Part shown: positions 2,533 through 60,771 of the stretch, one piece after another
Layout: every line of letters begins with the position of its first letter
How positions within the stretch are numbered: the first letter of the stretch is position 1
DNA from: Ottowia flava
GTDB taxonomy: Bacteria > Pseudomonadota > Gammaproteobacteria > Burkholderiales > Burkholderiaceae_C
Assembly: GCF_008017535.1 (NCBI RefSeq)
Contig: NZ_VRUA01000019.1
Location: forward strand, 1 to 64,000
Length of the DNA stretch: 64,000 nucleotides
Direction: 5' to 3'
Notes under the pieces: generated by a model
Database searches by the model: none
Told to the model about the DNA's origin: nothing
The model's input: only the letters and a program-made list of their open reading frames with translations
Position numbers and translations under genes: made by a program

Positions 2533-2588
2533 GTCAAATTGGCCTCTGGCCTTACAGCCACCTGCGCGATCAGCTATCGAATCGGTAG
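2533..2588 (+). repeat. Dispersed 60-bp repeat, copy 1 (forward)
   Basis: It shows the family landmarks in order: CAAATTGGCCTCTGGCC, TTACAGCCACCTGCGC, then CAGCTATCGAAT. It lies between the convergent stops of ppk2 and the SDR gene. Confidence 0.85.
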
Positions 2589-2624
2589 CGGTCAGCCGTT
2601 GACCTGGATGGTGTCAGACGCTCT

Positions 2625-3398
2625 TCAGCTGGCCTGGCGCACGTCGGCCACCGGCTCGCTGCCGAAGTCGGGGCGCGCCAGGTAGGCCAGGATGCGCCGC
2701 GCCGCGTCGTCGGGCGAGGTCAGTTGCCCGCCTTGCTTGAGCTGCTCGAAATTGCCGCGGTCGGGGAAGGCGCCCGCATCCGCGCCGCGCAGCTGCACCT
2801 GCATGTCGGTGTCGATCACGCCCGGGGCGAGCGAGCAGACCTTGGCACCGCCCGGTGCGTTGGCCTCGTCCAGCGCGAGGCAGCGCGTGAAGTGGTCCAT
2901 GCCGGCCTTGGCGGCGCAGTAGGCGGCCTGCGACGCCATCGCCTTGCGGCCGAGGCCCGACGAAATGTTCAGCACCTTGCGTTCGGCCTTCCAACCGCGC
3001 GTGGCGTCCAGAAAGGCGGCCGACAGCAGCATCGGCGCTTCCAGCCCGACGCGCAGCGCGTTGGCCAGGTCGGCCGGGCGGCTGTCGCGCAGCGGGGTGA
3101 TCGGCGGGATGACGCCAGCGTTGTTGATCAGCGTGGCGCTGGCAAAGCGGTCGGTGGGCAAGTCGCCCAGCCAGCCGCGCAAATGCGTGGCGGCCGCGAC
3201 ACCATCGGCCAGGTCGGCCGACCATTGGGTCAGCTGCGCGCCCGACTTCGTGGCGTGCTGCGCCAGCTCGCCGTTGACGCGCCGCGCCAGCGTCAGCACG
3301 GTGTGACCGGCCGCCAGCAACTGCTGCGCCATGGCCAGGCCCATGCCGCGCGATGCGCCGGTGAGGATGTAGATATGTTTTGCTGCAGATTCACTCAT
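2625..3398 (-). CDS. Short-chain dehydrogenase/reductase
   Basis: A classical SDR of about 257 residues. It has the glycine-rich NAD(P) loop TGASRGMG near the N-terminus, the structural NNAG motif, and the active-site serine and YCAAK tyrosine-lysine pair (NISSGLG and SQAAYCAAK). The start chosen is the ATG opening MSESAAKHIYILTG, because the nucleotide fold begins at once; the frame stays open 25 codons further up but through a hairpin region. It resembles sepiapterin-reductase-like and YciK-like SDRs, and the substrate is unknown. A 24-bp perfect palindrome sits 24 bp upstream of the start. Confidence 0.85.
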   Translation of the reverse strand: MSESAAKHIYILTGASRGMGLAMAQQLLAAGHTVLTLARRVNGELAQHATKSGAQLTQWSADLADGVAAATHLRGWLGDLPTDRFASATLINNAGVIPPITPLRDSRPADLANALRVGLEAPMLLSAAFLDATRGWKAERKVLNISSGLGRKAMASQAAYCAAKAGMDHFTRCLALDEANAPGGAKVCSLAPGVIDTDMQVQLRGADAGAFPDRGNFEQLKQGGQLTSPDDAARRILAYLARPDFGSEPVADVRQAS

Positions 3399-3421
3399 GC
3401 TTTGGAATCTAACAAAACAAC

Positions 3422-3445
3422 GCGCCCACGACATGTCGTGGGCGC
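3422..3445. promoter_or_regulatory. Perfect 24-bp palindrome upstream of the SDR gene
   Basis: The half site is GCGCCCACGACA and the second half is its exact reverse complement. On the minus strand it is followed by GTTGTTTTGTT, so it may be a second terminator for the SYLF gene. It may equally be an operator for the SDR gene, which starts 24 bp away. Confidence 0.5.
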
Positions 3446-3449
3446 CATC

Positions 3450-3482
3450 TGACAAAAACACAACGCCGCACAAGGCGGCGTT
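3450..3482 (-). terminator. Terminator of the SYLF lipoprotein gene
   Basis: An 8-bp stem, AACGCCGC with GCGGCGTT, closes a 5-nt loop and is followed on the minus strand by GTGTTTTTGTC. It begins 55 bp after the upstream stop. Confidence 0.75.
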
Positions 3483-3536
3483 GCTTCAGGGTACCGGGCT
3501 CGGGCGCGACCAGCGTGCCCAAGCGGCCCCGTGGCC

Positions 3537-4127
3537 TTACATGCTGATCTGCGTGATCTTGGCTGCGCCGACGGCAGCGCCGGCCTCCAGGCCCACGTTG
3601 GTCAGCACGAAGCTGGTCACGGCCTGCTGGTAGGTCTGGGTGTCGACCGAGCCGTTGGCGCCGATCTTGCCGGCCGCCACCGTGGCGTCGGCGCCGGCAG
3701 TCCAGCCCTTGCTCGACTTGAACTTTTGCAGCGCCTCGGGCGTGTTGAAGACATAAACCACCGATTTCGATTGGCCGCCGGCCTGCAGGCCGACCGAGCC
3801 CGCGGTGGTGCTGTAGTAGCCGCTGGTGCGGCCACCTTCACGCAGCGCGCCCTTGCCGTATTCGGCCCCAACGACGAAGGCGCCGCCCACGACCGACGGG
3901 AACACCAGCGTGCCCGCGGCGCGCTGCACCAGTTCACGCGAACCCGGCACGGTGGAATACAGGCGCGCCAGGGTGGCGTCCACGTTCTGGTCCATGGCGT
4001 TGCGCGCGCTCGGGCCCGAGGCTTCGGAGCCCGCCGGTGTGGTGGTGCAGCCGACAAAAGCGATACCACCCACGGCCAGCGCAGCGGCCAGACCCAGGGT
4101 GCGAAGAGATGGGAAGGATTTGTTCAT
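3537..4127 (-). CDS. SYLF-domain (YSC84-like) lipoprotein
   Basis: This is a 196-residue exported protein. The N-terminus is a signal peptide ending in the lipobox FVGC, so it is probably anchored in a periplasmic or outer-membrane leaflet. The rest is glycine- and alanine-rich with the pattern FPSVVGGAFVVGAEYGKGAL...GYYSTTAGSVGLQAGGQSKS, typical of the SYLF/YSC84 lipid-binding domain. The start at MNKSFPSLRTLG is favoured because AGGAG lies 8-12 bp upstream and the signal peptide begins there. The function in bacteria is poorly known; phospholipid binding is inferred from eukaryotic relatives. Confidence 0.85.
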   Translation of the reverse strand: MNKSFPSLRTLGLAAALAVGGIAFVGCTTTPAGSEASGPSARNAMDQNVDATLARLYSTVPGSRELVQRAAGTLVFPSVVGGAFVVGAEYGKGALREGGRTSGYYSTTAGSVGLQAGGQSKSVVYVFNTPEALQKFKSSKGWTAGADATVAAGKIGANGSVDTQTYQQAVTSFVLTNVGLEAGAAVGAAKITQISM

Positions 4128-4262
4128 GTGCAGACTCCTCTGAGAACCGAAAACTTCAGTTGGCGCCACTCTAGTGCGCGGGCCAAGGGCGGGGCGTAGG
4201 ACACCGGCTTGTGCTGGTGTCACATAGCCGCGCCGAAAAAAGTGTCGCACGCGGCCCCAGTT

Positions 4263-4925
4263 TCAGGCCGCCACCACGAGCGCGTAGCGCGCCCGCAGTG
4301 CTTGTCCGTCTATCACATAAGGTTGGGTCAATACGCGGCGCCCGTGTGTGTCCAGGCTGCGCCAGAGGAAGTCGCGCGCGTTGCCCGGATCGCCCTCGAC
4401 GTAAAGCTGGGTGGTCAGCAATTCGCGCTGGCCCAGACGCACCTTCAGGTGAATGTGCGGCGTGCGGCCGCTGTAGGGCGCCGGCCGCAGCGTGTGAAAA
4501 CGCCAGGTGCCGTCGCCGCCCAGCGCGACCCGGCCAAAGCCCTGGAACGCCGGGTCGGCCCGATCACCGTCGCGCGGGTGGTGGTAGTGGCCAGCCTGGT
4601 CGCACTGCCAGATTTCGACCTGTGCGCCCTTCAGCGGGCGGCCGTCCAGGTCAACCACCGTGCCTTCGACCCAGGCGGGCGTGCCGCCGCGGTAGCGCAG
4701 CGCGCCGTTCTTCAGCAGGTCGTGGTCGGAATCGGAAGGCAGTGCGACGGGGTAGAACGGCCCTTCGGTCTGGCGCGGCGTGGCGCGCAGAGGTTCTGTG
4801 GGCTGGGCGCGCACGCCGGTCAACACCCAGGGCGCGGCCAGCAGGGCCAGGGCGGCCTGTCGGCGGCGCGCCAGGCGCGGGCGCGGCGCGGGCAGGCTGA
4901 AGGTGGGGTGGCGCGGGTCGGGCAT
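4263..4925 (-). CDS. Exported intradiol (catechol-type) ring-cleavage dioxygenase
   Basis: The protein belongs to the protocatechuate 3,4-dioxygenase beta-like family of non-haem Fe(III) enzymes. With the start at MPDPRHPTFS (220 residues), the four expected iron ligands are visible: Tyr114 (GHYHHP), Tyr151 (PAPYSG), His157 and His159 (PHIHLKV). The N-terminus carries RRR followed by a hydrophobic stretch ending VRAQ, a Tat- or Sec-like signal peptide, which cytoplasmic PcaH lacks. Exported relatives are annotated as hypothetical dioxygenases and the true substrate is unknown. No aromatic catabolic genes flank it. Longer starts would run into the repeat copy just upstream. Confidence 0.85.
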   Translation of the reverse strand: MPDPRHPTFSLPAPRPRLARRRQAALALLAAPWVLTGVRAQPTEPLRATPRQTEGPFYPVALPSDSDHDLLKNGALRYRGGTPAWVEGTVVDLDGRPLKGAQVEIWQCDQAGHYHHPRDGDRADPAFQGFGRVALGGDGTWRFHTLRPAPYSGRTPHIHLKVRLGQRELLTTQLYVEGDPGNARDFLWRSLDTHGRRVLTQPYVIDGQALRARYALVVAA

Positions 4926-4966
4926 GGGCTGTGCGAGCCCACCTGTGGCGCCAGAGTTCCCCGCGA

Positions 4967-5028
4967 TTTTGCTATGAAAGGCGTAGCTGGCTGCACGCGG
5001 CTGTAGCGAAAAAGGTCTATTTGACAAG
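4967..5028 (-). repeat. Dispersed repeat, copy 2 (reverse)
   Basis: On the minus strand it reads CAAATAGACC, then GCTACAGCCGCGTGCAGC, then CAGCTACGCC. It is clearly related to the family but has diverged in the linker. It lies between the dioxygenase start and the pseudouridine-synthase stop. Confidence 0.65.
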
Positions 5029-5046
5029 TATTTCTGTGTGATCCGG

Positions 5047-5814
5047 TCAAAACGGTGCAGCGCAGTGCCAGCGCAGTGCTTCGCCCGTCGCGGGGTGCGT
5101 CAGACCAAGCGCGCACGCGTGCAGCATCAGCCGCGCTGCCGCATCATGCGGCGGCCCGTACAGCGCGTCGCCCACGATCGGGTGGCCCAGCGCCATCAGG
5201 TGCACTCGCAACTGGTGCGAACGCCCGGTGACGGGCGCCAGCGCCACGCGTGTCGTGTCTGTCGCCGGGTCGTGGGCCAGCGGGCGCCAGTGCGTCTGGC
5301 TCGGCTTGCCATGCAAGGGGTCGACCCTGCTGCGCGGCCGGTTGGGCCAGTCGAGCAGCAGCGGCAGATCGATCAGGCCCCAGCCGTCGGCGGGCGTGGT
5401 GCTTAGACCATCGGCTGCGCGCACGCCGTGCGCCAGCGCGGCGTCGCTCCGGTGCGCATCGGCGCTCGCTTCGGGCGGCAAGAGCAGCCGACCATGCACC
5501 AGCGCTTCGTAGCGCTTGGCCACGCGGCGCTCGGCGAAATCGGCGGACAACTGCCGTTGCACCGCGAGGCTGCGCGCCAGCACGATCAGGCCGCTGGTGG
5601 CCTGGTCCAGCCGGTGCACCACCAGCGCGTCGGGCCAGCGGCGCAGGGCGCGGGCGCTCAGGCAGTCGGCCTTGTCGGGGCCGCGGCCCGGCACGGCGAG
5701 CAGGCCGGCGGGCTTGTCGAGCACCAGCAGGTGGGCGTCTTCGTGCACGACGCACAGAGCATCCAGATGGACGCTGGGCTTAGAGCCGTCTGCGCAGGCA
5801 GCTATCGAATGCAT
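5047..5814 (-). CDS. RluA-family RNA pseudouridine synthase
   Basis: The enzyme isomerises uridine to pseudouridine in rRNA or tRNA. The catalytic aspartate is Asp70 in HRLDQATSGLIVLAR, and the family opening EDAHLLVLDKPAGLLAVPGRG is present. It is 255 residues and lacks an S4 domain, like RluA or TruC, but the modified site cannot be assigned. The only in-frame ATG gives the N-terminus MHSIAACADGS, which is encoded by a copy of the dispersed repeat, and no clear ribosome-binding site precedes it. The RRNA-fold residues begin around residue 21, so the first ten or so are an add-on. Confidence 0.85.
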   Translation of the reverse strand: MHSIAACADGSKPSVHLDALCVVHEDAHLLVLDKPAGLLAVPGRGPDKADCLSARALRRWPDALVVHRLDQATSGLIVLARSLAVQRQLSADFAERRVAKRYEALVHGRLLLPPEASADAHRSDAALAHGVRAADGLSTTPADGWGLIDLPLLLDWPNRPRSRVDPLHGKPSQTHWRPLAHDPATDTTRVALAPVTGRSHQLRVHLMALGHPIVGDALYGPPHDAAARLMLHACALGLTHPATGEALRWHCAAPF

Positions 5815-5816
5815 AG
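5781..5816 (+). repeat. Dispersed repeat, copy 3 (partial, over the pseudouridine-synthase start)
   Basis: Only the right half is recognisable: GTCTGCGCAGGCAGCTATCG. On the opposite strand this encodes the first ten residues of the RluA-type protein. Confidence 0.5.
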
Positions 5817-5884
5817 TGAATTATGGCACCGTCCGACCGCGTCAAGGCGACCCGACAGGCGCATGCGCAGCAGGCCGCCGCTGG

Positions 5885-6412
5885 TCACGCGGGGTTGATC
5901 GGCGGTGTGGGCGTGCCCAGCGCCAGCACCTGCGCCAGTTCTTCGGCGCCCACGCTGCGGGCGCTGCCAAAGCCGGCGATCTGGCGCGCGCCGGTCGGGC
6001 GCAGCGTGACGAAGCGGAAGTCGCCCAGCTCGGCCATGAACGCGGCTTCGGGAAAGCGCTGCACATAGGCCGCATGGGCGCTGCGCTGCGCGGGCGAGTC
6101 GGGCGCCGGTGTGCGGGCCAGCGCGTCGAGGGTGACGCGGGGCAAATCGTGCACCGGGCTGCCCGCGACCTCGGGCGCGCTGACCAGCAGCGACGCGCGC
6201 GGATCGGCCTGCAGATTGGCCGTGTGCGCGGCCAGGCCGCTCAGGTGCAGCACGATGACCGGGGCGCCGTCGCCCAGCGGGTCCACCGCAAAGGGCACCA
6301 GCGACACGCTCGGCGCGCCGCCACTGGCGTTCAGCGAGCCCAGCGCGCCGGTGCGGCGGGCGCACAACAGTTGGTGCAGGGCTTGGCCCAGACGGGGCAG
6401 ATGGGCAGTCAT
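5885..6412 (-). CDS. FMN-binding split-barrel protein (HugZ / PNPOx-like)
   Basis: The 175-residue protein has the pattern of the pyridoxamine-phosphate-oxidase-like split barrel: LCARRTGALGSLNASGGAPSVSLVPFAVD at the start and RASLLVSAPE in the middle, as in HugZ/HutZ haem-utilisation proteins. It also has the late FRFVTLRPTGARQIAGFG segment typical of that group. It could be a haem-degrading oxygenase or a general flavin reductase. No haem-uptake genes are nearby, so the role stays open. It is transcribed alone, with a dispersed repeat 50 bp upstream. Confidence 0.75.
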   Translation of the reverse strand: MTAHLPRLGQALHQLLCARRTGALGSLNASGGAPSVSLVPFAVDPLGDGAPVIVLHLSGLAAHTANLQADPRASLLVSAPEVAGSPVHDLPRVTLDALARTPAPDSPAQRSAHAAYVQRFPEAAFMAELGDFRFVTLRPTGARQIAGFGSARSVGAEELAQVLALGTPTPPINPA

Positions 6413-6460
6413 CCGGCGACGACGGGGTAGGGCGCCGAGCGGGTCGGTTGGCCAGTCTTC

Positions 6461-6522
6461 AAGGAAAACTGGCTGTCAGGCCTACAACCACCTGCGCAGA
6501 GCGCTATGAAAAATAGAGTTTT
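6461..6522 (+). repeat. Dispersed repeat, copy 4 (forward)
   Basis: It reads AAAACTGGCTGTCAGG, then CCTACAACCACCTGCGCAGA, then GCGCTATGAAAAATAG. The terminal CTAT-GAAAA-ATAG mini-hairpin is intact. Confidence 0.85.
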
Positions 6523-6554
6523 CAGGCGGGTGCGGAAAGCGCTGGCCAGCGCGG

Positions 6555-7745: not shown

Positions 7746-7911
7746 GTCAGCCTCCTTCCTAGCATGAAGCCTGCTGCGCCCGGGACTCCACCCAGCGACG
7801 CGCAGGCGTGCGATGTGGCAGCAAAGTATAGGGGCCGGGGCACCATCAGTGCGTGCTCAGCTTGCGTGCAAGGCCGTTTGGCCGGCCCAAGGAGCAGTGC
7901 GGCGGGCGTGT

Positions 7912-9974: not shown

Positions 9975-9979
9975 GCCGG

Positions 9980-11275: not shown

Positions 11276-12319
11276 GTGACCCTCGTTCTCGCCCCCATGG
11301 AAGGCCTGCTGGACCACGGCCTGCGCGACATCCTGACGCGCGCCGGGGGCGTGGACCGCTGCGTGTCCGAATTCATCCGCATCACCGACCAGCTGCTGCC
11401 ACCCCGCAGCTTCATCCGCGTGGTGCCGGAGCTGCTGCGCGGCAGCCGCACGCGCTCGGGCGTGCCGGTGCGGCCGCAGCTGCTGGGGTCCGACCCGGTT
11501 TGCGTGGCCGAGAACGCCGCGCGCCTGGCCGAGCTGGCCCCGGCCGGCATCGACCTGAACTTCGGCTGCCCCGCCAAGACCGTCAACCGCCACCGTGGCG
11601 GCGCCGTGCTGCTGAACGAGCCCGAACTGGTCCACGCCATCGTCGCCGCTGTGCGCCGCGCCGTGCCGGCGGCGATCCCGGTGTCGGCCAAGATGCGCCT
11701 GGGCTACGAGGACGACGGCCCCATGCTCGACTGCGCCCGCGCCATCGAGGCGGCCGGCGCCAGCGAACTCGCCGTGCACGCGCGCACCAAGGCGCAGGGC
11801 TACAAGCCGCCTGCTTACTGGGACGCCATCGCGCGCATCCGCGCCGAAGTGCGCCTGCCCATGATCGCCAACGGTGACATCTGGAACGTGGCCGACGCCT
11901 GGCGCTGCCGCGCCGAAACCGGCTGCCATGACCTGATGCTGGGCCGCAGCATGGTGCGCCGCCCCGGTCTGGCGCTGGCGATTGCGCAAAGCCAGGCGCC
12001 GAAGGACCCGCTGGGCGGCACCGCAGAAGGCGTGCCGTCCGACACCGACCCGGCCGTGCGGGCCCTACCATGGCGCCGGATCGAGCCACTGCTGGTGGAT
12101 TTCTGGGCCGACGTCAGCTCGCGTGTGGAGCGCCGCCACCGGGCGGGGCGCCTCAAGCTGTGGCTGACCTATCTGCGCCACGCCTACCCGGAGGCCGACC
12201 AGGCGTTCGACGCGCTGCGCCGCATCAACGACGCCCCCGCTATCGACGCCTGGATACTATCGATTCAGGAGCGGCTTGCGCAGGTGGTTGTAGCGCCAGA
12301 GGCCGATTTTGTTCTGTAA
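11276..12319 (+). CDS. dusC: tRNA-dihydrouridine(16) synthase
   Basis: A flavin enzyme that reduces uridine in tRNA. The opening LVLAPMEGLLDHGLRDIL and the active-site cysteine Cys98 in LNFGCPAKTVNRHRGGA are diagnostic for Dus, and the sequence around Cys98 fits the DusC subgroup. Phosphate-binding IANGDI and MLGRSM follow. The start taken is the GTG just before LVLAPMEG: homologues begin there, although the frame is open much further upstream. Residues from about 326 (AWILSIQERLAQ and onwards to the stop) are encoded by a reversed copy of the dispersed repeat, so the native C-terminus has been replaced or extended. Confidence 0.9.
   Translation: MTLVLAPMEGLLDHGLRDILTRAGGVDRCVSEFIRITDQLLPPRSFIRVVPELLRGSRTRSGVPVRPQLLGSDPVCVAENAARLAELAPAGIDLNFGCPAKTVNRHRGGAVLLNEPELVHAIVAAVRRAVPAAIPVSAKMRLGYEDDGPMLDCARAIEAAGASELAVHARTKAQGYKPPAYWDAIARIRAEVRLPMIANGDIWNVADAWRCRAETGCHDLMLGRSMVRRPGLALAIAQSQAPKDPLGGTAEGVPSDTDPAVRALPWRRIEPLLVDFWADVSSRVERRHRAGRLKLWLTYLRHAYPEADQAFDALRRINDAPAIDAWILSIQERLAQVVVAPEADFVL
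12254..12315 (-). repeat. Dispersed repeat, copy 5 (reverse, inside the dusC 3' end)
   Basis: On the minus strand it reads AAAATCGGCCTCTGGCGC, then TACAACCACCTGCGCAAG, then CGCTCCTGAATCGATAG. It is one of the best-conserved copies, although it is read as protein on the plus strand. Confidence 0.88.
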
Positions 12320-13504: not shown

Positions 13505-13558
13505 CTTTTATGGCTGTGGGCATTGCTGGATCAGCGCAGCCAGCTATCCATAGTGAAG
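13505..13558 (+). repeat. Dispersed repeat, copy 6 (strongly decayed)
   Basis: Only the right end (CAGCGCAGCCAGCTATCCATAG) resembles the family. The rest of this 237-bp gap between convergent genes holds nothing else recognisable. Confidence 0.3.
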
Positions 13559-13592
13559 CAAAGCGGTCACCGACTGACGGCGACACGGCTGC

Positions 13593-15639: not shown

Positions 15640-15702
15640 TTATATAAGGAATTGGCCTCTTTCCCTACTGCCATCTGCGCGACCAGCTATTGAAATGGAA
15701 GC
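15640..15702 (+). repeat. Dispersed repeat, copy 7 (forward)
   Basis: It reads GGAATTGGCCTCTTTCCC, then TACTGCCATCTGCGCGACC, then AGCTATTGAAATGG. It lies between the convergent stops of the oxidoreductase and the Bug receptor. Confidence 0.82.
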
Positions 15703-15756
15703 AAGTGTCGCTCAAGTCGGGGGGGTGCCGATGGGGCATCGCCAGCCCCCCGTCGC

Positions 15757-22471: not shown

Positions 22472-22528
22472 TGGATAAAATTGGTCTACAGCCCTACAAC
22501 CATAAGCGCCAATAGCTATAAAGTTTGA
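22472..22528 (+). repeat. Dispersed repeat, copy 8 (forward)
   Basis: It reads ATAAAATTGGTCTACAG, then CCCTACAACCATAAGCGCC, then ATAGCTATAAAG. Its right edge reaches into the last codons of the methyltransferase gene. Confidence 0.75.
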
Positions 22529-23223
22529 AGCAAATTGATGCGCATCGGACGCAGGAAGGGCGTGCCCGGTGGCGGCTTGAGCGCCTCGAAACGCTCGCGC
22601 ACCGCGTCGCGCATGCCGGGGCTCCAGCGGCGGTCGGCATAGGTCACGCCGGTCATGCGACGCTCGTAATCATCGAAATCGGTAAAGCGCACCGGCATGT
22701 CGAAATGGAGTTCGGCCACTTCGCGCCAGCCGCCCGTGGCCAGTGCGCGCTGCACGGCGGCGTACGCGGCCTCGCGCACCTGCTGCTCATCGTTGAACAA
22801 GCGGTTGATCTCGTTGAGCGGGCCGTCGAACACGGGCTCCGACACATACAGATGGGCCCTGAGGCGCAGCACGCGCCGGGTCTCGGCCAGCGCCTGGTCC
22901 AGCAGAGGCAGCGGCACGTGGTGCAGCGACTTGAGCATCAACGCCAGGTCGAACTGCGCATCCGGCGAGGGGATGGCCTGCGCGCCCGCGGCCACAAAGC
23001 GCAGCCCGGGGACGGCCGGCGCGGCCAGATTTTGCGCGTGCTGGATCGCGTCCACTTCGAGCGCCAGCACGCTGCAGTCCGGGCGCGTCTGCACCAGGCG
23101 CCGCGACAGCGCTGCCCCGCCGCAGCCCAGCTCGATCACACGCAAGTTGTGCAGCGGCACCCAGCGCGCGATCAGCGCCAGTTCGTCACGCGTCTGTTCG
23201 GTGGTGGGGGCGATCAGCGGCAT
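22516..23223 (-). CDS. Class I SAM-dependent methyltransferase
   Basis: The 235-residue protein has the SAM motif I VIELGCGGAALSRRL, an acidic residue at the end of strand 2 (VLALEVD) and a later DLALMLKSLHHVPLP block, the usual order of UbiE/Methyltransf_11 enzymes. The start taken is MPLIAPTTEQ, because the longer frame overlaps the NUDIX gene upstream. Its stop region coincides with a repeat copy. The substrate is not identifiable. It follows the NUDIX gene by 16 bp and is probably co-transcribed. Confidence 0.82.
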   Translation of the reverse strand: MPLIAPTTEQTRDELALIARWVPLHNLRVIELGCGGAALSRRLVQTRPDCSVLALEVDAIQHAQNLAAPAVPGLRFVAAGAQAIPSPDAQFDLALMLKSLHHVPLPLLDQALAETRRVLRLRAHLYVSEPVFDGPLNEINRLFNDEQQVREAAYAAVQRALATGGWREVAELHFDMPVRFTDFDDYERRMTGVTYADRRWSPGMRDAVRERFEALKPPPGTPFLRPMRINLLQTL

Positions 23224-26948: not shown

Positions 26949-27008
26949 GCATTTTTGGCCTCCAGCCCTACAACCATCTGCGCGGGAAGCTATTAAAAAT
27001 GTAGTAGT
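26949..27008 (+). repeat. Dispersed repeat, copy 9 (forward)
   Basis: It reads TTTTTGGCCTCCAGCCC, then TACAACCATCTGCGCGGG, then AAGCTATTAAAAATGTAG. It lies in the 248-bp gap between gshA and the esterase gene, which holds no other recognisable element. Confidence 0.87.
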
Positions 27009-30920: not shown

Positions 30921-30940
30921 GCGGGCCGATCAGCGTCTGC

Positions 30941-31000
30941 TGCAAATTCAGGAGCTGGCCGCGCAAGTGGTTGTAAGGCCAGCTCCGGATTTCATTTGAA
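30941..31000 (-). repeat. Dispersed repeat, copy 10 (reverse)
   Basis: On the minus strand it reads GAAATCCGGAGCTGGCC, then TTACAACCACTTGCGCGG, then CCAGCTCCTGAATTTGC. It lies between the convergent stops of cytX and sbcC. Confidence 0.82.
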
Positions 31001-36401: not shown

Positions 36402-36462
36402 ATGCTATAAAAAGAGAAGCTTGCAGCGCAGGTGGTTGTAGGGCCAGCGCTTGATTTTTCTT
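36402..36462 (-). repeat. Dispersed repeat, copy 11 (reverse)
   Basis: On the minus strand it reads AAATCAAGCGCTGGCCC, then TACAACCACCTGCGCTGC, then AAGCTTCTCTTTTTATAGC. The core is a perfect match to the consensus TACAACCACCTGCGC. Confidence 0.88.
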
Positions 36463-37594: not shown

Positions 37595-37645
37595 GGCTCG
37601 CTGGCCCTACAGCTCATTGCGCGGGCAGCTACTCAATCAATAGCG
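37595..37645 (+). repeat. Dispersed repeat, copy 12 (forward)
   Basis: It reads CGCTGGCCCTACAGCTCATT, then GCGCGGGCAGCTACTC, then AATCAATAG. It sits 58 bp past the trhO stop. Confidence 0.72.
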
Positions 37646-39159: not shown

Positions 39160-39221
39160 GAATCAAATCGACCTCTGGCCCTACAACCAATTGCGCGAGC
39201 AGCTATCAAAAAAATAGTTGT
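39160..39221 (+). repeat. Dispersed repeat, copy 13 (forward, near-consensus)
   Basis: It reads ATCAAATCGACCTCTGGCCC, then TACAACCAATTGCGCGAG, then CAGCTATCAAAAAAATAG. It is a useful reference copy, with the terminal CTAT...ATAG dyad intact. Confidence 0.92.
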
Positions 39222-50928: not shown

Positions 50929-50990
50929 GAAAATTGGCTCTGAGGCAGTGTGGATAAGCGCTGAAAGCTATGCAAAAGATAGCAATTAAG
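50929..50990 (+). repeat. Dispersed repeat, copy 14 (diverged)
   Basis: It keeps AAAATTGGCTCTGAGG at the left and AAGCTATGCAAAAGATAG at the right, while the centre (GTGGATAAGCGCTG) has drifted. Apart from this, the terminator at 50837 and the dyad at 51095, the 328-bp gap before the kinase gene holds nothing recognisable. Confidence 0.55.
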
Positions 50991-51119: not shown

Positions 51120-52148
51120 ATGAATGTGCCGACTGCCGTAGCCCTGCCCAGGCTTTTCGTCGTGGGCAGTTTTGTGGAAGCGCATTGCTGGTTTGTCGCG
51201 GAGCGCCCTGCCGCCGACGAAAGCCAGCATGCGAATGCTTACGCGCGGGAGTTTGGCGGCAAGGGGCTGGCGGTGGCGCTGGGCGCGCATCGCTTGGGTG
51301 TGGCAGTCGATTTGCTGATTGCAGCTGGCGAGGACGCCGCCGGTGATGCCTTGCTGGCACTGCTTCTGGAGGAAGGCGTGTCGAGCATGCACACCCATCG
51401 GCTTGGCCAGCATTCGGGGCGGGGATGTGGGCTGATCACTGCGCAGGGGGGTACCACGGTCACCGTCTTTGCTGGCGCAAATGCGTTGCTTGGCGGGCGG
51501 GAGTTGCAGTTGGCGGAGGCGGCGCTGCGCAGCGCCTCGGTCGTCTATGCCCAACTGGAGGTGCCGCTGGCGCTGGCGCAACAGGTTTTGCGCCGAGCTC
51601 GCTCGACCGGTGCGCTCACGGTGCTCAATGCGTCGCCATGGCCGGCGACGGCACTCTCAGGGCGTGAAGAAAGCTGGGCAGGGCTGCTGGCAGCGACGTG
51701 CGTACTGGTGCTCAATCAGAACGAGGCGGTCGCCGCTCTGGCCGAACTGGCTGATCGATCTGAGCCCGAGGGCGGCGTGACCACACTGGCGGCCCTGCCG
51801 CCGCACGTGACCGATTTGGTATGGCGGCGTTGGCCCGGCGGGCAGTGGCTGGTTATCACGCTGGGCGCCCGCGGTTGCGTCGCCTATGGTGCCGATGGTT
51901 CAGTCGTGGACGTGCAGGGCCATTTGGTCGATGTCCGTCAGCCGATTGGCGCGGGAGATGCCTTCAGCGCCGGCCTGTGCGCCGCGTTGACCGCTGGCGA
52001 AGCCATGGCCGACGCCCTGAAGCTGGCCAACGCGTGCGGCGCGCTGGCCACCAGTCGGGACGGTATTCTCGCGGCGTTGCCACGTCGGGAGGAGGTTCTG
52101 GGGCTTGCTGCTGCGGCTTACTCCGACGACCTGTCAGGACGCCGATAG
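51120..52148 (+). CDS. PfkB-family carbohydrate kinase (ribokinase-like)
   Basis: The 342-residue kinase has the N-terminal GGKGLAVALGAHRLG motif and the C-terminal PfkB signature IGAGDAFSAGLCAAL with the catalytic Asp in GAGD. LNASPWPATAL and LNQNEAVAAL match ribokinase-like proteins. The likely substrate is a pentose or a nucleoside, but nothing around it defines it. The start ATG lacks an obvious ribosome-binding site. It is convergent with a GntR gene. Confidence 0.87.
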   Translation: MNVPTAVALPRLFVVGSFVEAHCWFVAERPAADESQHANAYAREFGGKGLAVALGAHRLGVAVDLLIAAGEDAAGDALLALLLEEGVSSMHTHRLGQHSGRGCGLITAQGGTTVTVFAGANALLGGRELQLAEAALRSASVVYAQLEVPLALAQQVLRRARSTGALTVLNASPWPATALSGREESWAGLLAATCVLVLNQNEAVAALAELADRSEPEGGVTTLAALPPHVTDLVWRRWPGGQWLVITLGARGCVAYGADGSVVDVQGHLVDVRQPIGAGDAFSAGLCAALTAGEAMADALKLANACGALATSRDGILAALPRREEVLGLAAAAYSDDLSGRR

Positions 52149-52210
52149 CTTCAAAAAGAATAGCTGCTCACGCAGGTTGGTAAGGCGCCAGGCCAGGATT
52201 TTCTTTAGAA
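52143..52210 (-). repeat. Dispersed repeat, copy 15 (reverse)
   Basis: On the minus strand it reads AAAATCCTGGCCTGGCGCC, then TTACCAACCTGCGTGAG, then CAGCTATTCTTTTTGAAG. It begins in the last codons of the kinase gene. Confidence 0.75.
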
Positions 52211-55556: not shown

Positions 55557-55955
55557 TTATTTTACCCCATCTGCGTCGGCGTTGCCTTGCTCGACCAGGA
55601 TGGCGGCGACCACGCGGCGCCCCTCCCCTGCCAGGATGTTGTAGGTCCGGCAAGCTGCTGCCGTGTCCATGGTTTCAATGCCAATACGCGCTTCAACCAA
55701 GGCGCGAATCCAGGGTGGCCGGGGGAATCGCAGGGCGTTGCCGCTGCCAAAAATCACCAGTTCCGGTTTGAGCGCGGCGAGGCGCTCGAAATGGGCGGCA
55801 TCCAGCGCGTCGAACCGGTCGACCCGCCAGTCCTGTTGTTCACCAGTCGTGCCGTCAAGAATCAGGCTGTGATGCACGCGCTCGCCTGCCACGGCAATCC
55901 AACCGGGGCCGTAGCCGGTGATGGCAGTGCCAAAGACGTCGGGCTGAAATTTCAT
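55557..55955 (-). CDS. Mth938-domain (DUF498) protein
   Basis: The 132-residue protein begins MKFQPDVFGTAITGYGPGWIAVAGERV and contains KPELVIFGSGNALRFPRP, the pattern of the Mth938/NDUFAF3-like domain. In eukaryotes the relative assists complex I assembly; bacterial members are uncharacterised. The start agrees with family members. It is divergent from alaA, with 97 bp between them, and runs into bcp with a 119-bp gap. Confidence 0.85.
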   Translation of the reverse strand: MKFQPDVFGTAITGYGPGWIAVAGERVHHSLILDGTTGEQQDWRVDRFDALDAAHFERLAALKPELVIFGSGNALRFPRPPWIRALVEARIGIETMDTAAACRTYNILAGEGRRVVAAILVEQGNADADGVK

Positions 55956-56052
55956 GCGGAACCTGTCGATCGCCTTATATGGGAGAAACCTGTGGCGAAT
56001 GTGTTCCAATTCTAGGTTTCCCTGGCGATCCATTGCCGCACAAGGTGTATCC

Positions 56053-57327
56053 ATGAAGCCGATTCCGAAATCCGCCAAGCTGGCCAACGTGCTTTACGAC
56101 GTTCGCGGTCCGATCGTGGATGCCGCCAAGCAGATGGAAGATGAAGGCCAGAAGATCATCAAGCTGAACATTGGCAACCTCGCGCCGTTCGGCTTCGAGC
56201 CGCCCGAGGAGATCGTGCAGGACATGGCGCGCAACCTGCTCGGCTCGGCGGGGTATTCCGACAGCAAGGGCATCTTCTCTGCGCGCAAGGCGGTGATGCA
56301 CTACACGCAGCAGCAAGGCATCGCGGGCGTGACCATGGACGACATCTACCTGGGCAATGGCGCCAGCGACCTGATCGGCATGGCCACCAACGCGCTGTTG
56401 TCCGAGGGCGACGAGATGCTGGTGCCAGCGCCCGACTACCCGCTCTGGACAGCGGTGACCAGCCTTTCCGGTGGCGTGCCGGTGCACTACCTGTGCGACG
56501 AGCACAACGGCTGGATGCCCAGCCTGGCCGACATCCGCGCCAAGATCACGCCGCGCACCAAGGCGATCGTCGTCATCAACCCCAACAACCCGACCGGCGC
56601 GCTGTATTCGGACGAGTTGCTGATGGGCATCGTCGAGATTGCGCGCCAGCACAACCTGGTCATCATGGCCGACGAGGTGTACGACAAGGTGCTGTACGAC
56701 GGCGTCACGCACACCGCGCTCGGCTCGCTGTCCACCGACGTGCTCACGCTCACCTTCAACTCGCTTTCCAAGTCGTACCGCTCGTGCGGCTACCGCGCCG
56801 GCTGGATGATCGTGTCGGGCGACAAGGCCGCCGCGCGCGACTACATCGAAGGCATCAACATGCTGGCCAACATCAAGTTGGGCAGCAACGTGCCGGGCCA
56901 GTACGCCATTCAAACGGCGCTAGGCGGCTACCAGAGCATTCAGGATTTGGTCAAGGAAGGCGGTCGCCTGCGCCGCCAGCGCGATCTGGCGTACGAGCTG
57001 ATCACCGCCATCCCGGGCGTCACCTGCGTCAAGCCGCAAGCCGCGCTGTACATGTTCCCGCGCCTGGACGCGAAGATGTACCCGATCGAGGACGACCGCC
57101 AGTTCTTCATGGAAGTGCTGCGCGCCACCAAGGTCATGCTGGTGCAGGGCTCGGGCTTCAACTACCCGGACCAGCACCATTTCCGCATCGTCTTCTTGCC
57201 GCACGAAGACGATCTGCGCGAAGCCATCAACCGCTTGGCCAAGTTCCTGGAGCAGTACCGCAACCGCCGCGCCAAGCTCGCGCCCGTGGTCGACATTGCT
57301 AGCAAAAAAGAAGCTGCCCGCGCTTGA
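56053..57327 (+). CDS. alaA: Glutamate--pyruvate (alanine) aminotransferase
   Basis: A class I PLP enzyme of 424 residues, similar to E. coli AlaA. The PLP lysine is Lys240 in NSLSKSYRSCGYRAGW; the co-substrate block NPNNPTGALYSDELL and MADEVYDKVLYDG are present. It makes alanine from pyruvate. The last ten residues (IASKKEAARA) are encoded within a reversed dispersed repeat. The gene stands 37 bp before hom and is likely co-transcribed with it. The ATG chosen (MKPIPKSAKLANVLYDVRGP) matches homologues. Confidence 0.92.
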   Translation: MKPIPKSAKLANVLYDVRGPIVDAAKQMEDEGQKIIKLNIGNLAPFGFEPPEEIVQDMARNLLGSAGYSDSKGIFSARKAVMHYTQQQGIAGVTMDDIYLGNGASDLIGMATNALLSEGDEMLVPAPDYPLWTAVTSLSGGVPVHYLCDEHNGWMPSLADIRAKITPRTKAIVVINPNNPTGALYSDELLMGIVEIARQHNLVIMADEVYDKVLYDGVTHTALGSLSTDVLTLTFNSLSKSYRSCGYRAGWMIVSGDKAAARDYIEGINMLANIKLGSNVPGQYAIQTALGGYQSIQDLVKEGGRLRRQRDLAYELITAIPGVTCVKPQAALYMFPRLDAKMYPIEDDRQFFMEVLRATKVMLVQGSGFNYPDQHHFRIVFLPHEDDLREAINRLAKFLEQYRNRRAKLAPVVDIASKKEAARA

Positions 57328-57358
57328 TGGACTGGGGCTACAGCACGATTTGACTCAA
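57296..57358 (-). repeat. Dispersed repeat, copy 16 (reverse, spanning the alaA end)
   Basis: On the minus strand it reads GTCAAATCGTGCTGTAGCCC, then AGTCCATCAAGCGCGGGC, then AGCTTCTTTTTTGCTAGC. It covers the last alaA codons and the alaA-hom gap. Confidence 0.72.
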
Positions 57359-57364
57359 GAATTC

Positions 57365-58690
57365 ATGAAACCAATGCAAGTGGGCCTGATCGGCCTGGGT
57401 ACCGTGGGTGCTGGCGTTTTCGAGGTGCTTCGACGCAACCAGGAAGAGATCAGTCGGCGGGCAGGTCGCAGTATTGAGGTGCGTGCCGTATCGCGGCGTG
57501 ACATCGCCAAGGCGCGGGCCATGGTTGGTGGTGCTGCCAGGGTGGAGGAAGATCCTCGCGCGCTCATTCGTGATCCCGAGATTGAGGTGATCGTTGAGTT
57601 GATCGGTGGTTATGACCTTTCGCGCGAACTGGTGCTTGAAGCCATCGCCGCCGGCAAGCACGTGGTCACCGCCAACAAGGCGCTGCTGGCCGTGCACGGC
57701 ACCGAGATCTTTGAGGCCGCCGACAAGAAGGGCGTGATCGTCGCGTTTGAGGCCGCCGTGGCCGGGGGCATCCCGATCATCAAGGCGCTGCGCGAAGGCC
57801 TGACCGCCAACCGCATCCAGTGGATCGCCGGCATCATCAACGGCACGACGAACTTCATCCTGAGCGAGATGCGCGACAAGGGCCTGGACTTCGACGTGGT
57901 GCTGAAAGAAGCGCAGCGCCTGGGCTATGCCGAGGCCGACCCGACTTTCGACATCGAAGGCGTGGACGCGGCGCACAAGGCGACCATCATGAGCGCCATC
58001 GCCTTCGGCATTCCGGTGCAGTTCGACAAGGCCTACGTGGAAGGCATCACGCAGCTGTCGGCCACCGACATCCGCTACGCCGAACAACTGGGCTACCGCA
58101 TCAAGCTGCTGGGCATCACCAAGCGCCGCGAAGGCGAGGGCGTCGAACTGCGCGTGCACCCCACGCTGGTGCCGGCCAAGCGCCTGCTGGCCAACGTCGA
58201 AGGCGCGATGAACGCCGTGGTCGTCAACGGCGACGCCGTCGGCACCACGCTGTACTACGGCAAGGGCGCGGGCAGCGAGCCCACGGCCAGTGCCGTCATC
58301 GCCGACCTGGTCGACGTCACGCGCCTGGCCACCAGCGACCCGCAGCACCGCGTGCCGCATCTGGCCTTCCAGCACAGCCAGATGCGCGACGTCAGCGTGC
58401 TGCCGATTGACCACGTCGTCACCAGCTACTACCTGCGCCTGCGCGTGGCCGACCAGGCCGGCGTGCTGGCGCGCGTGGCCACCATCCTGGCCGATGCGGG
58501 CATCAGCGTGGACGCGCTGCTGCAGCGCGAGGCCGACGAGGTGGGCGGTGAGGGCAGCACCCAGACCGACCTGATCATCCTGACGCACCAGGCGCGCGAA
58601 GGCGCGATGAACGCCGCGCAGGAACAGTTGCAGGCGTTGCCCAGCGTGCTGCAGCCGATCGTGCGCATCCGCAAGGAAGAGCTGGCCTGA
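57365..58690 (+). CDS. hom: Homoserine dehydrogenase
   Basis: The 441-residue monofunctional enzyme reduces aspartate semialdehyde to homoserine for threonine and methionine. The nucleotide loop VGLIGLGTVGAGVFEVL is near the N-terminus, the central GIINGTTNFIL and EADPTFDIEGVDAAHKATIM hold the substrate site, and a C-terminal ACT domain (residues about 360-435, LRLRVADQAGVLARVATILADAGISVDA) suggests feedback control. The ATG of MKPMQVGLIG lies just past the repeat copy. Confidence 0.96.
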   Translation: MKPMQVGLIGLGTVGAGVFEVLRRNQEEISRRAGRSIEVRAVSRRDIAKARAMVGGAARVEEDPRALIRDPEIEVIVELIGGYDLSRELVLEAIAAGKHVVTANKALLAVHGTEIFEAADKKGVIVAFEAAVAGGIPIIKALREGLTANRIQWIAGIINGTTNFILSEMRDKGLDFDVVLKEAQRLGYAEADPTFDIEGVDAAHKATIMSAIAFGIPVQFDKAYVEGITQLSATDIRYAEQLGYRIKLLGITKRREGEGVELRVHPTLVPAKRLLANVEGAMNAVVVNGDAVGTTLYYGKGAGSEPTASAVIADLVDVTRLATSDPQHRVPHLAFQHSQMRDVSVLPIDHVVTSYYLRLRVADQAGVLARVATILADAGISVDALLQREADEVGGEGSTQTDLIILTHQAREGAMNAAQEQLQALPSVLQPIVRIRKEELA

Positions 58691-58721
58691 CGCGCGCGCG
58701 TCGGCCGGGGCGTTCGCCGTC

Positions 58722-59279
58722 ATGAGCTATTGCGCGTTCGTGAATGGGCTGCCGCCGGGCACCGACGACCCCAACAAGGCCTACCACGACCACGCCTACG
58801 GCTTTCCGATCACGGACGACAACGCGCTGTTCGGCCGCCTGCTGCTGGAGATCAACCAGGCGGGCTTGAGCTGGACGTTGATGCTGAAGAAGCAGGCGGC
58901 GTTTGAGGCCGCCTACGACAGCTTCGACATCGCCCGTGTCGCCGCTTACACCGAGGCCGAGCGCCAGCGCCTGTTGCAGGACGCGGGCGTCGTGCGCAAC
59001 CGCCTGAAGGTCAATGCTGCGATCCATAACGCGCAGCAGATCCGGGCGCTGCAGGCCAGCCACGGCAGCTTCAAAAGCTGGCTGGATGCGCACCACCCGC
59101 TATCGAAAGACGAGTGGGTCAAGCTCTTCAAGCGCCACTTCAAGTTTGTCGGTGGCGAGATCGTGAACGAATTCCTGATGAGCACCGGCTACCTGCCGGG
59201 CGCCCACCAGCCCGATTGCCCGGTGTACGCCCGCGTGCGCGCGGCGCGCCCGCGCTGGGCCGACGACACCCCCAAGTGA
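58722..59279 (+). CDS. tag: DNA-3-methyladenine glycosylase I
   Basis: The 185-residue helix-hairpin-helix glycosylase removes 3-methyladenine from DNA. The structural zinc ligands match E. coli Tag: Cys4, a His in AYHDHAYG, and His162/Cys166 near the C-terminus. The active-site region reads LEINQAGLSWTLMLKKQ, with Glu in the expected place. It sits between hom and thrC, 31 bp after the former and 7 bp before the latter, a striking insertion of a repair gene into an amino-acid operon. Confidence 0.92.
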   Translation: MSYCAFVNGLPPGTDDPNKAYHDHAYGFPITDDNALFGRLLLEINQAGLSWTLMLKKQAAFEAAYDSFDIARVAAYTEAERQRLLQDAGVVRNRLKVNAAIHNAQQIRALQASHGSFKSWLDAHHPLSKDEWVKLFKRHFKFVGGEIVNEFLMSTGYLPGAHQPDCPVYARVRAARPRWADDTPK

Positions 59280-59286
59280 GTGTGAG

Positions 59287-60714
59287 ATGAACTACCTGTC
59301 CACCCGTGGCGACGCCACGCCGCGCCGCTTTTGCGACATCCTGCTGGAAGGTCTGGCGCCCGATGGCGGCCTGTACCTGCCCGAACACTACCCGCACGTC
59401 GACAGCACCATGCTGACGCATTGGCGCAACCTGTACGCGCAGCACGGCTACGCCACGCTGGCGTTCGAGATCCTCAGCCTCTACATCGACGACATCCCTG
59501 CGGCCGACCTGAAGGCGATCTGCGAGACGACCTACACCCCCGAAGTCTTCGGCACCTTGGAAATCGTGCCGCTGAAGTCGCTGCAGCCCAAGTTCTACCT
59601 GGAAGGCCTGTCCAACGGCCCCACGCTGGCCTTCAAGGACATGGCCATGCAGCTGCTGGGCAACCTGTTCGAATACGAACTGGGCCGTCGCGGCGAGCAG
59701 CTCAACATCCTGGGCGCCACCAGTGGCGACACCGGCAGCGCGGCCGAATACGCCATGCGCGGCAAGCAGGGCATCCGCGTCTTCATGCTCAGCCCGCACG
59801 GCCGCATGAGTGCCTTCCAGCAGGCGCAGATGTTCAGTCTGCAAGACCCCAACATCCACAACATCGCCATCGAGGGCGTGTTTGACGACTGTCAGGACAT
59901 CGTCAAGGCCGTCAGCAACGACCTGGGCTTCAAGCGCCGGCACAAGATCGGCACCGTCAACTCGATCAACTGGGCGCGCCTGCTGGCGCAGGTCGTCTAT
60001 TACTTTGCCGGCTACTTCCAAGCGACTCGCTCGAATGCTGAGCAAGTCAGCTTTGCCGTGCCCAGCGGCAACTTCGGCAACATCTGCGCCGGCCACGTCG
60101 CCCGCATGATGGGGCTGCCGATCCGCCAGTTGGTGCTGGCCACGAACGAGAACGACGTGCTGGACGAGTTCTTCCGCACCGGCGTGTACCGCGTGCGCGG
60201 CAGCGCCGACACGCACGAGACCAGCAGCCCGTCCATGGACATCAGCAAGGCCAGCAACTTCGAGCGCTTCGTGTTCGACCTGCTCGGCCGCGACGGCGCG
60301 CGCACCAAGGCCTTGTTTGAAGACGGCGTCGCCAAGCAAGGCCAGTTCGACCTTAGCCAGGACCCGGCCTTCGCCCAGGCGCGCGAGCGCTTCGGCTTCG
60401 TCAGCGGCAAGAGCACGCACGCCGACCGGCTGGCGACCATCCGCGACGTGTACGAGAAATTCGACGTGATGATCGACACCCACACCGCCGACGGCGTGAA
60501 GGTGGCGCGTGAACACGCCCAGCCGGGCGAGCCGATGATCGTGCTGGAGACGGCGCTGCCCATCAAGTTTGCCGCGACCATCGTCGAGGCGCTGGGGCGC
60601 GAGCCCGACCGCCCGCCCAAGTTCGACGGGATCGAAGCGCTGCCGCGCCGCGTGCGCGTGATGCCTGCGGACGCCGATGGCATCAAGCGCCTCGTCGTGC
60701 AGGAATGTGGATGA
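59287..60714 (+). CDS. thrC: Threonine synthase
   Basis: The 475-residue PLP enzyme converts O-phosphohomoserine to threonine. It has the long N-terminal domain of the proteobacterial type, MNYLSTRGDATPRRFCDILLEGLAPDGGLYLPE, and the PLP lysine Lys117 in LAFKDMAMQLLG, followed by ATSGDTGSAAEYA. It follows tag by 7 bp, so alaA-hom-tag-thrC is probably one transcript. thrB is not nearby. Confidence 0.96.
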   Translation: MNYLSTRGDATPRRFCDILLEGLAPDGGLYLPEHYPHVDSTMLTHWRNLYAQHGYATLAFEILSLYIDDIPAADLKAICETTYTPEVFGTLEIVPLKSLQPKFYLEGLSNGPTLAFKDMAMQLLGNLFEYELGRRGEQLNILGATSGDTGSAAEYAMRGKQGIRVFMLSPHGRMSAFQQAQMFSLQDPNIHNIAIEGVFDDCQDIVKAVSNDLGFKRRHKIGTVNSINWARLLAQVVYYFAGYFQATRSNAEQVSFAVPSGNFGNICAGHVARMMGLPIRQLVLATNENDVLDEFFRTGVYRVRGSADTHETSSPSMDISKASNFERFVFDLLGRDGARTKALFEDGVAKQGQFDLSQDPAFAQARERFGFVSGKSTHADRLATIRDVYEKFDVMIDTHTADGVKVAREHAQPGEPMIVLETALPIKFAATIVEALGREPDRPPKFDGIEALPRRVRVMPADADGIKRLVVQECG

Positions 60715-60771
60715 AATAGGCTCGAACGCCTTGAAGGGCGGGCGCGGCCAGCTATTAAACCAGTAGTACTC
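60714..60771 (+). repeat. Dispersed repeat, copy 17 (diverged)
   Basis: The left half has decayed (AATAGGCTCGAACGCCTTG), while the right half GGCGCGGCCAGCTATTAAAC is clear. It fills the gap between thrC and mobB, leaving only the mobB ribosome-binding site. Confidence 0.55.

Follow-up and report, generated by a model that had tools for sequence, protein, structure and literature searches.

A dispersed element of about 65 bp in Ottowia flava and related genomes, with a REP-associated tyrosine transposase as the candidate reader of its sites

Copies of the element in the window and in the source genome

Contig C11 of Ottowia flava begins with a stretch of 64,000 nucleotides (hereafter the window; the source genome comprises 4.12 Mb in 53 contigs) that contains a dispersed, mainly intergenic DNA element of about 65 bp, which an initial annotation of the window had described as a family of repeats of about 60 bp. 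Here, we have compared this element across the source genome and across other genomes of the same GTDB family (designated by the letter G and a number), and we have found that it is a real and very abundant element across one family, with constraint on the motif at individual sites and with dialects. The reading that we tentatively favour, while giving it somewhat less than an even chance, is that of an element of the repetitive extragenic palindromic (REP) class, whose sites are read by a trans-acting protein, the best candidate being a REP-associated tyrosine transposase (RAYT).

The searches have been conducted with a seed profile built from six of the copies named in the initial annotation, with iterated and pooled-over-genomes profiles that were derived later, and with two further models, R1 (from 11 copies) and R2 (used for the family-wide search); the gene coordinates and the intergenic classes of the source genome and of G011, G014 and G023 come from a purpose-written gene finder. 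With the iterated profile of the source genome, 17 copies are found in the window at E<0.01 (17.2 to 50.1 bits; Table 1), six of them being classified as convergent, nine as tandem, two as overlapping or inside predicted genes and none as divergent; model R1 gives 19 matches at E<=1 in the window and locus L001 together, 17 of which lie within the window. The copies that had been singled out as the best ones (39160, 26949, 36402, 12254, 6461 and 2533) have all been recovered; two of those described as decayed (13505 and 60714) pass the E<0.01 threshold, while the copy at 50929 lies outside the 17 (seed E 0.013, R1 E 0.0038). Both orientations and a frequent location between convergent genes have been found as claimed, and most copies lie within 60 bp after a stop codon, although gaps of 68, 83 and 105 bp exist.

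Table 1. Copies of the element in the window, with their scores under the iterated profile of the source genome and, where available, under model R1.
Feature	Position	Strand	Context	Bits	E-value	R1 bits
copy	2536..2589	+	convergent intergenic	50.1	1e-14	60.8
copy, weak	4970..5022	-	tandem intergenic	20.7	2e-5	
copy	5773..5816	+	tandem intergenic	35.0	7e-10	
copy	6467..6518	+	tandem intergenic	30.3	2e-8	
copy	12256..12309	-	overlaps 3' end of predicted gene 11276-12319 (+)	47.6	8e-14	
copy, decayed	13510..13560	+	convergent intergenic	22.6	5e-6	
copy	15650..15703	+	convergent intergenic	42.7	3e-12	
copy	22478..22531	+	at stop of gene 22516-23223 (-)	28.3	9e-8	
copy	26955..27005	+	tandem intergenic	48.1	6e-14	
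copy	30938..30992	-	convergent intergenic	39.0	4e-11	
copy	36403..36457	-	convergent intergenic	39.3	3e-11	
copy	37599..37644	+	tandem intergenic	32.7	4e-9	
copy	39165..39217	+	tandem intergenic	45.6	4e-13	56.4
copy	52148..52194	-	convergent intergenic	21.9	9e-6	
copy	57297..57351	-	overlaps stop of gene 56053-57327 (+)	26.7	3e-7	
copy, decayed	60728..60767	+	tandem intergenic	17.2	3e-4	
copy	61791..61841	-	inside predicted gene 61322-62587 (+)	23.4	3e-6	

In 464 kb of the source genome, the six-copy seed detects 87 copies at E<1e-3, with no match in one dinucleotide shuffle of the sequence, the iterated profile detects 122 copies at E<1e-3 (none in the shuffle) and the multi-genome pooled profile detects 134 copies at E<0.01 (none in the shuffle); a pooled search with stricter settings, which had no shuffled control, detects 114. 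The copies therefore far exceed what shuffled sequence yields, and the existence of the dispersed family is confirmed; its density, one copy per 3.5-4.1 kb, bears out the earlier estimate of about one per 4 kb and corresponds, by extrapolation, to approximately 1,000-1,200 copies in the source genome, for which a whole-genome search has returned at least 150 matches, all at E<=1.4e-10. Short strings are also enriched in the window: CTACAACCACCTGCGC has 17 matches with up to three mismatches against 1.2 expected (a set that differs from the 17 copies), and CAAATTGGCCTCTGGCC has three matches against 0.19 expected. No Rfam family matches the window at its gathering score, and a scan of genome contigs with a 16-base pattern has returned chance matches, with no copy above 20 bits at any of those loci.

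Anatomy and dialects

The information of the element spans about 65 columns, from a TT tract located approximately nine columns 5' of AAAT to a few bases past ATAGCA, and is about zero beyond both sides. The conserved blocks follow one another in the order TT(T)..AAG, AAAT, GGCC, (C)TAGCGC, a loop of about 11 bases, GCGC, GGCAGCTAT, a 7-base A/T-rich loop and ATAGCA; two GCGC half-sites, which are present in most dialects, flank the variable loop, and AGCT is nearly invariant. In the source genome and in G011, the T of AGCT carries about 2.4 bits, and the A of AGCT and the A of the TAG in ATAGC carry more than 2 bits each. The GC content of the element is 49-52%, compared to 66-68% in the genome samples.

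The differences between dialects are concentrated in the loop and its surroundings, which read GCCCTACAACCACCTGCGC in the source genome, GCGC..G..C.ACCAGCGCTGGC in G011, and GCGCTTG....CAAGCGC in G014, G023 and G150. In the stretches examined, every genome has a consensus of its own: when the scored copies are left out of the matrices, orthologous copies fit better under the matrix of their own genome in 20 of 22 cases for the source genome and G011, 27 of 28 for G011 and G014, 19 of 22 for G011 and G023, 39 of 48 for G014 and G023, and 6 of 6 for G023 and the source genome. The core identity of orthologous copies is 0.64-0.69, compared to 0.55-0.59 for random pairs, in three genome pairs (source genome/G011, with 0.64 vs 0.55, G011/G023 and G014/G023), and 0.58 vs 0.57 in G011/G014.

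At the 3' end of the element, ATAG outnumbers GTAG. The tetramer CTAC is frequent in the element of the source genome (61 of 114 copies, vs 25 of 150 in G011) and is also seen in G016; on the reverse strand, some copies have GTAG ahead of a short palindrome of GGCC, and this REP-like appearance may be a coincidence.

Constraint at orthologous sites

Copies are found again at orthologous sites within the genus, and many have stayed there. At shared sites, the orientation of the copies agrees in 25 of 25 cases from G014 to G023, in 12 of 12 from G010 to G023, in 10 of 10 from the source genome to G011 and in 23 of 24 from G023 to G014; the comparisons with G003 include one to three opposite orientations each, some of them where two copies adjoin closely.

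Our test of constraint is one-sided: the copies are ascertained in one genome and aligned to the anchored, near-collinear stretch of the partner, regardless of detection there, and the mismatches are counted in 22 informative and 13 uninformative columns; copies with length differences or far anchors, some of which are absences, were omitted. From G023 to G010, mismatches occur at 6 of 286 informative vs 20 of 169 uninformative positions (p 3e-5; 13 of 16 anchored copies); the corresponding counts are 47 of 352 vs 85 of 208 from G014 to G023 (p 4e-13; 16 of 40 copies), 28 of 308 vs 63 of 182 from G023 to G014 (p 8e-12; 14 of 31 copies) and 10 of 132 vs 32 of 78 from the source genome to G011 (p 2e-8; 6 of 13 copies). 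Across nine comparisons, the uninformative columns change 2.9 to 5.6 times as often as the informative ones. Two-sided comparison of tandem pairs gives informative and uninformative mismatch rates of 0.091 and 0.425 for same-oriented copies (19 pairs) and of 0.132 and 0.562 for opposite-oriented copies (39 pairs); in the two-sided ungapped comparison of G014 and G023, the flanks mismatch at 0.481 and the uninformative columns at 0.478, the flank value being inflated by indels. Within the element, the contrast between informative and uninformative columns stands on firm ground; measured against neutral DNA, the matter is not yet settled. The element is thus more than a dead transposon, the informative columns at orthologous sites changing about 3-6 times less than the uninformative ones (less clearly so when set against the flanks) and the copies following the profile of their own genome.

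Position and orientation relative to genes

Among intergenic regions of at least 100 bp, those between convergent genes are occupied by a copy most often (66, 49, 36 and 47% in the source genome, G011, G023 and G014, respectively), followed by the tandem (30, 34, 26 and 30%) and the divergent regions (9, 13, 6 and 12%). In the source genome, 96 of 122 copies lie outside predicted genes; about one fifth lie within them (26 of 122, and 26 of 110 in G011), and 35 of the 53 in-gene copies of these two genomes fall in two of the six possible frames.

In tandem regions of six genomes, 109 copies have the same orientation as the gene and 127 the opposite one (p 0.27; in G014 alone, 17 and 32, p 0.04), and the copies of the two orientations score equally (p 0.63). 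The two strands are roughly balanced with respect to replication in five stretches, the spacing is not regular beyond a random choice among intergenic regions, and no deserts occur except for partial last bins. Since the orientation is random, the scores are equal and both orientations are constrained, we read the element at the level of DNA rather than RNA; a protein-binding site, one of the suggestions of the initial annotation, is the best reading of the constraint data, with the binder itself being putative.

A further suggestion of the initial annotation, an RNA element at the 3' end of the transcript that acts in processing, stability or termination, is very improbable in our judgement, even though it would account for the location behind stop codons and for a moderate hairpin, which G011 and G014 have with mean values of fold z between -1.4 and -1.6. 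The fixed orientation and conserved pairing of such an element have not been found: the orientation is random, both orientations are constrained, the mean fold z of the source genome is only -0.36 (the two strands being similar, as they are in G011 at -1.6), and RNAalifold on 127 sequence-aligned copies returns only two pairs, both near-invariant, which are uninformative either way on RNA pairing. No Watson-Crick covariation rises above 20 column shuffles within the source genome or G011 (with average product correction); each of these genomes has one covarying pair above the largest shuffle, located in the loop and non-Watson-Crick, and the pooled covariation above shuffles involves mostly loop columns that differ between dialects (16-58% standard pairs). 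The fold-back of CTAT on ATAG that had been proposed is present in some copies, but does not covary. Terminator-like sites in convergent regions are somewhat rarer with a copy than without one in three of four genomes (source genome 0.24 vs 0.45, G011 0.38 vs 0.50, G014 0.22 vs 0.38; the reverse in G023, 0.29 vs 0.21), as the RNA reading would have it, these being small numbers with no test applied; tandem regions have no consistent deficit.

Insertion and mobility

At least one copy has arisen by insertion, which supports the mobile origin suggested earlier: in G014, hisD is longer by 84 bp (28 codons, with the frame kept) that contain the element and are absent from G023 and G003, and the two best PDB chains lack the extra stretch in their alignments. 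Extra residues relative to PDB homologues are also found at the copies in a family-4 uracil-DNA glycosylase (26 residues), RlmJ (18) and GlmU (11), the GlmU copy being shared with G011. The PDB alignment of LeuS has no clear insertion at its copy, so that not every in-gene copy is an insertion; a weak in-gene match shared by four genomes, in what is presumably a NIF3-like protein, may be a chance event.

No burst in the stretches examined is recent. The mean pairwise identity within a genome is the same as for sequences drawn independently from the matrix, with a wider spread (sd 0.065-0.076 vs 0.054-0.056), and the most alike pairs are 78-84% identical, outside one tandem array of G014; pairs above 0.78 number one in the source genome, four in G011 and one in G023, with about 0.1 expected. 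Recent large-scale copying has consequently been rejected, the identities matching matrix draws with a slight excess of alike pairs, and recent gene conversion is disfavoured, as it would leave more alike pairs. The tandem array (G014:C1 ~1018066-1018620, locus L230) consists of four copies repeated every 165 bp, of which three are 97-100% identical, and holds the only near-identical copies in the sampled stretches.

These results bear on the possibility that the copies are the neutral remains of an old REP-like element, or of a miniature inverted-repeat transposable element (MITE), left near gene ends, with subfamilies that mimic dialects. The clean hisD insertion, the scarcity of alike copies, the variable presence or absence of copies within the genus and between sites, and the likeness that orthologous copies retain by descent (except in G011/G014) would all fit; nevertheless, we consider it improbable, because the informative columns are kept at orthologous sites and the uninformative ones are not, copies at the same site follow the consensus of their own genome, and two genomes that differ in dialect have similar profiles of column information.

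Distribution and comparison with described repeats

With model R2 at E<=1e-5, 40 of the 120 genomes searched in one GTDB family, probably Comamonadaceae, contain the element; in the order, 4 of 200 genomes match, all four in the same family, and model R1 finds no match in 16 genomes of other families. Within the genus, 20 of 29 genomes match at E<=1e-7, with from one to at least 150 copies each. Three plasmid records also match (Diaphorobacter, Comamonas and an uncultured bacterium), Diaphorobacter being a member of Comamonadaceae, in agreement with the earlier statement that similar sequences occur in this family; a search of phages with one consensus query has returned no match.

Among known repeats, ERIC, BOX, Correia/NEMIS and other MITEs are short, non-autonomous and intergenic, like the element; in contrast to MITEs, the element has no visible target-site duplication (at one clean site) or sign of recent mobility, and it is constrained at orthologous sites. 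Rickettsia palindromic elements and PARCEL are palindromic repeats located in frame within protein-coding genes, and thus resemble the in-frame copies described above; compared by description, they differ from the element, which is mainly intergenic, occurs in other hosts and has dialects.

The BRE repeats of Bordetella and Comamonadaceae are likewise dispersed and mostly intergenic, with some coding copies (PMC3110155), but they are 75-91 bp long with a mean GC content of 69% in Bordetella, and they occur in at most 29 copies, often in tandem, compared to one tandem array for the element; the difference in copy number is weak evidence, given that an identity of >70% was required for counting BRE (PMC3110155). 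We have set BRE apart by length, GC content and arrangement as described, not by sequence, and it is a possible relative; otherwise, no prior description of the element has been recognised in the open-licence literature, with subscription journals and preprints lying outside the search, and six 16-base strings of the element have matched no paper there.

The DNA uptake sequences (DUS) and uptake signal sequences (USS) also have many copies on both strands with species dialects, which for DUS are documented in Neisseriaceae (PMC3630211). A motif of this kind, maintained through biased uptake and recombination of DNA (molecular drive), would fit the presence of a copy every 4 kb or so on both strands, the dialects, the copies in coding sequences and the near-matrix behaviour of the copies; we regard it as quite improbable here, since about 65 bp far exceeds the length of DUS or USS, a new copy came as a whole insertion, and the intergenic preference of the element is strong.

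A candidate reader of the element

The source genome contains one gene of family PF01797 (Y1). With 82.3 bits against a cut-off of 80, its product narrowly passes the NCBIfam model NF047646, "REP-associated tyrosine transposase", and a sequence search at E<=0.001 finds no relative of it in the PDB; a copy of the element lies directly 3' of the stop codon of the gene. We have compared the Y1 genes of 20 element-rich genera (from 23 genomes with at least 17 hits and a Y1 gene) with those of 20 genera without an R2 match, placing the loci by tblastn and reading the score of the 3' half of the element within 95 bp of the stop. A score of at least 6 is reached in 16 of 20 element-rich and 5 of 20 element-free genera (p 0.001), and a score of at least 10 in 13 and 3, respectively; 18% of 1,519 ordinary gene ends in four element-rich genomes reach a score of at least 6. 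The motif GCTATCAAATTTGATGTGTCC, written after the sequences had been seen, is found in 16 of 20 vs 2 of 20, and the full profile in 6 of 20 vs 0 of 20; close copies on both sides of the Y1 gene are clear only in locus L270. Across the family, 37 of the 40 genomes with the element have a Y1 gene, compared to 52 of the 80 others (p 0.0009). G128, which is outside the 89 Y1-positive genomes, holds 8 sparse and decayed copies per 200 kb (median 18.7 bits), compared to 30 copies (29.2 bits) in G150, which has the gene; this state fits dependence on Y1, and being that of one genome it proves little. G005, also without the gene, is sparse as well (9 copies per 200 kb).

The element resembles REP and REPIN repeats with their RAYT in being short, of high copy number, mostly extragenic and present in both orientations, and in being accompanied by a single-copy, apparently vertically inherited Y1 enzyme that matches NF047646. 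It differs from them in that GTAG is no general tag, the hairpin is weak in the source genome, the copies number about 1,000 by extrapolation, and, while REPINs are described as replicating populations, the element shows constraint and dialects at orthologous sites. We have therefore not filed it as a REP, its length and the GTAG tag being at variance, although it may work like a REP/RAYT pair; the view that it is not REP-like holds for length and tag, whereas the possible RAYT link places it beside these systems. RAYTs are described as single-copy and vertically inherited, RAYT-bearing E. coli genomes hold more REPINs (PMC8049555), and enzyme and REP co-evolve in known pairs (PMC8266576, PMC8049555).

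According to the reading that we favour, a trans-acting protein would recognise the sites as DNA, and the consensus would co-evolve with this reader, giving rise to the dialects; the candidate reader is the single-copy RAYT, an HuH/Y1 enzyme, behind whose stop the 3' half of the element often lies. The enzyme may once have spread the element as single-stranded DNA, the copies surviving where promoters were spared, i.e. at the 3' ends of genes, in convergent regions and in in-frame protein loops, and the host may now retain the pair for some function at the ends of genes, where we would guess at the handling of supercoils or of single-stranded DNA as transcription ends. The fuller version, in which, in one branch of Comamonadaceae, a single-copy, vertically kept RAYT and about 1,000 sites of 65 bp form a co-evolving recognition system, each site being selected, orthologous sets shifting dialect together with the reader and the host job lying at gene ends, is rather doubtful.

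A number of results weigh against the RAYT reading. As far as the sites are concerned, no copy is present at the orthologous site in 15 of 40 cases from G014 to G023, 7 of 31 from G023 to G014, 10 of 22 from G011 to G023 and 3 of 13 from the source genome to G011; the anchored flanks, which are partly coding, mismatch at 0.035 from G023 to G010 (uninformative columns 0.118) and at 0.234 from G014 to G023, values that fall close to the informative columns or between the two classes, and the rate of the informative columns lies below that of the flanks by a factor of only about 1.1 to 3.6 in the nine one-sided comparisons. Neither terminal inverted repeats nor a target-site duplication can be seen by eye at hisD, the sole clean empty site; GTAG occurs at the 3' end in 18 of 114 copies of the source genome, 18 of 150 of G011, 22 of 82 of G014 and 15 of 64 of G023; and the length of about 65 bp exceeds the 20-40 bp given for REP in PMC3733652. 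As far as the enzyme is concerned, PF01797 also includes ordinary IS200 transposases, the full profile behind the Y1 stop (6 of 20) does not exceed the usual occupancy of tandem regions (26-34%), and 9 of 16 Y1 loci of the genus reach a 3'-half score of at least 6. Three genomes, G017 (99% complete), G016 (86%) and G020 (76%), hold at least 150 copies at E<=1e-7 with no PF01797 match, which speaks against a strict dependence on the RAYT; G012 (7.0 Mb, of the same genus) has a Y1 gene with no copy at E<=1e-7 and three at E<=0.01, and in the genus 12 of the 15 element-rich genomes carry the gene, as do 9 of the 14 element-poor ones (p 0.43). Lastly, the compared loci, which share the flanks TCTGACCCC and CTTGGCA, are probably one orthologous locus, so that the contrast between them, which may reflect few events and whose p-values ignore phylogeny, is suggestive only.

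Simple dependence on Y1, as a separate candidate, is weakened by G017, G016, G020 and G012; the last of these, being nearly free of the element, could also serve as a natural control for its role.

The three element-rich genomes with no Y1 match are consistent with another origin of the constraint, namely binding of the site by a host protein that has nothing to do with the transposase, such as a nucleoid or topology protein, the site being derived from a mobile element that has been fully taken over. The model for such a supercoil-handling site at gene ends is the gyrase- or IHF-like use of bacterial interspersed mosaic elements (BIMEs); the constraint in both orientations and the order of occupancy in four genomes, from convergent (36-66%) through tandem (26-34%) to divergent regions (6-13%), would agree with it. 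However, the avoidance of promoters alone would give the same order, the spacing is random given the intergenic regions, and the motif at the 3' end of the RAYT gene is left unexplained; we consider this alternative unlikely.

The host benefit of REP-type repeats and of domesticated transposases is described as an open question (PMC8049555). A repeat that is kept at orthologous sites across species makes single-site selection measurable, and the differences in dialect between related species allow the reader to be sought by swapping dialects in vitro; if the RAYT reading is true, the old question of the function of REP-type repeats becomes directly testable, for an element that also enters conserved proteins in frame.

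Additional observations at the Y1 loci

The single-copy Y1 gene (L001:1430-2280 and loci L315-L354) is often bounded by GGGGTCAGA and TCTGACCCC, the right end having TGTCCCC within it, which suggests a unit with its own terminal repeats. G014 has 20 PF01797 matches, including several equal-scoring IS200-like genes and copies that are broken up into two open frames; in each of the remaining 28 genomes of the genus, 0-5 matches are found. At locus L280 (G022:C12 near 35070), GTGGGAGCGGGCTTGCCCGCGATAAG, which we take to be a Pseudomonas REPIN, is found with an inverted partner beside a second Y1 gene; this unit may belong to a contaminating contig or may be a transferred RAYT-REPIN unit.

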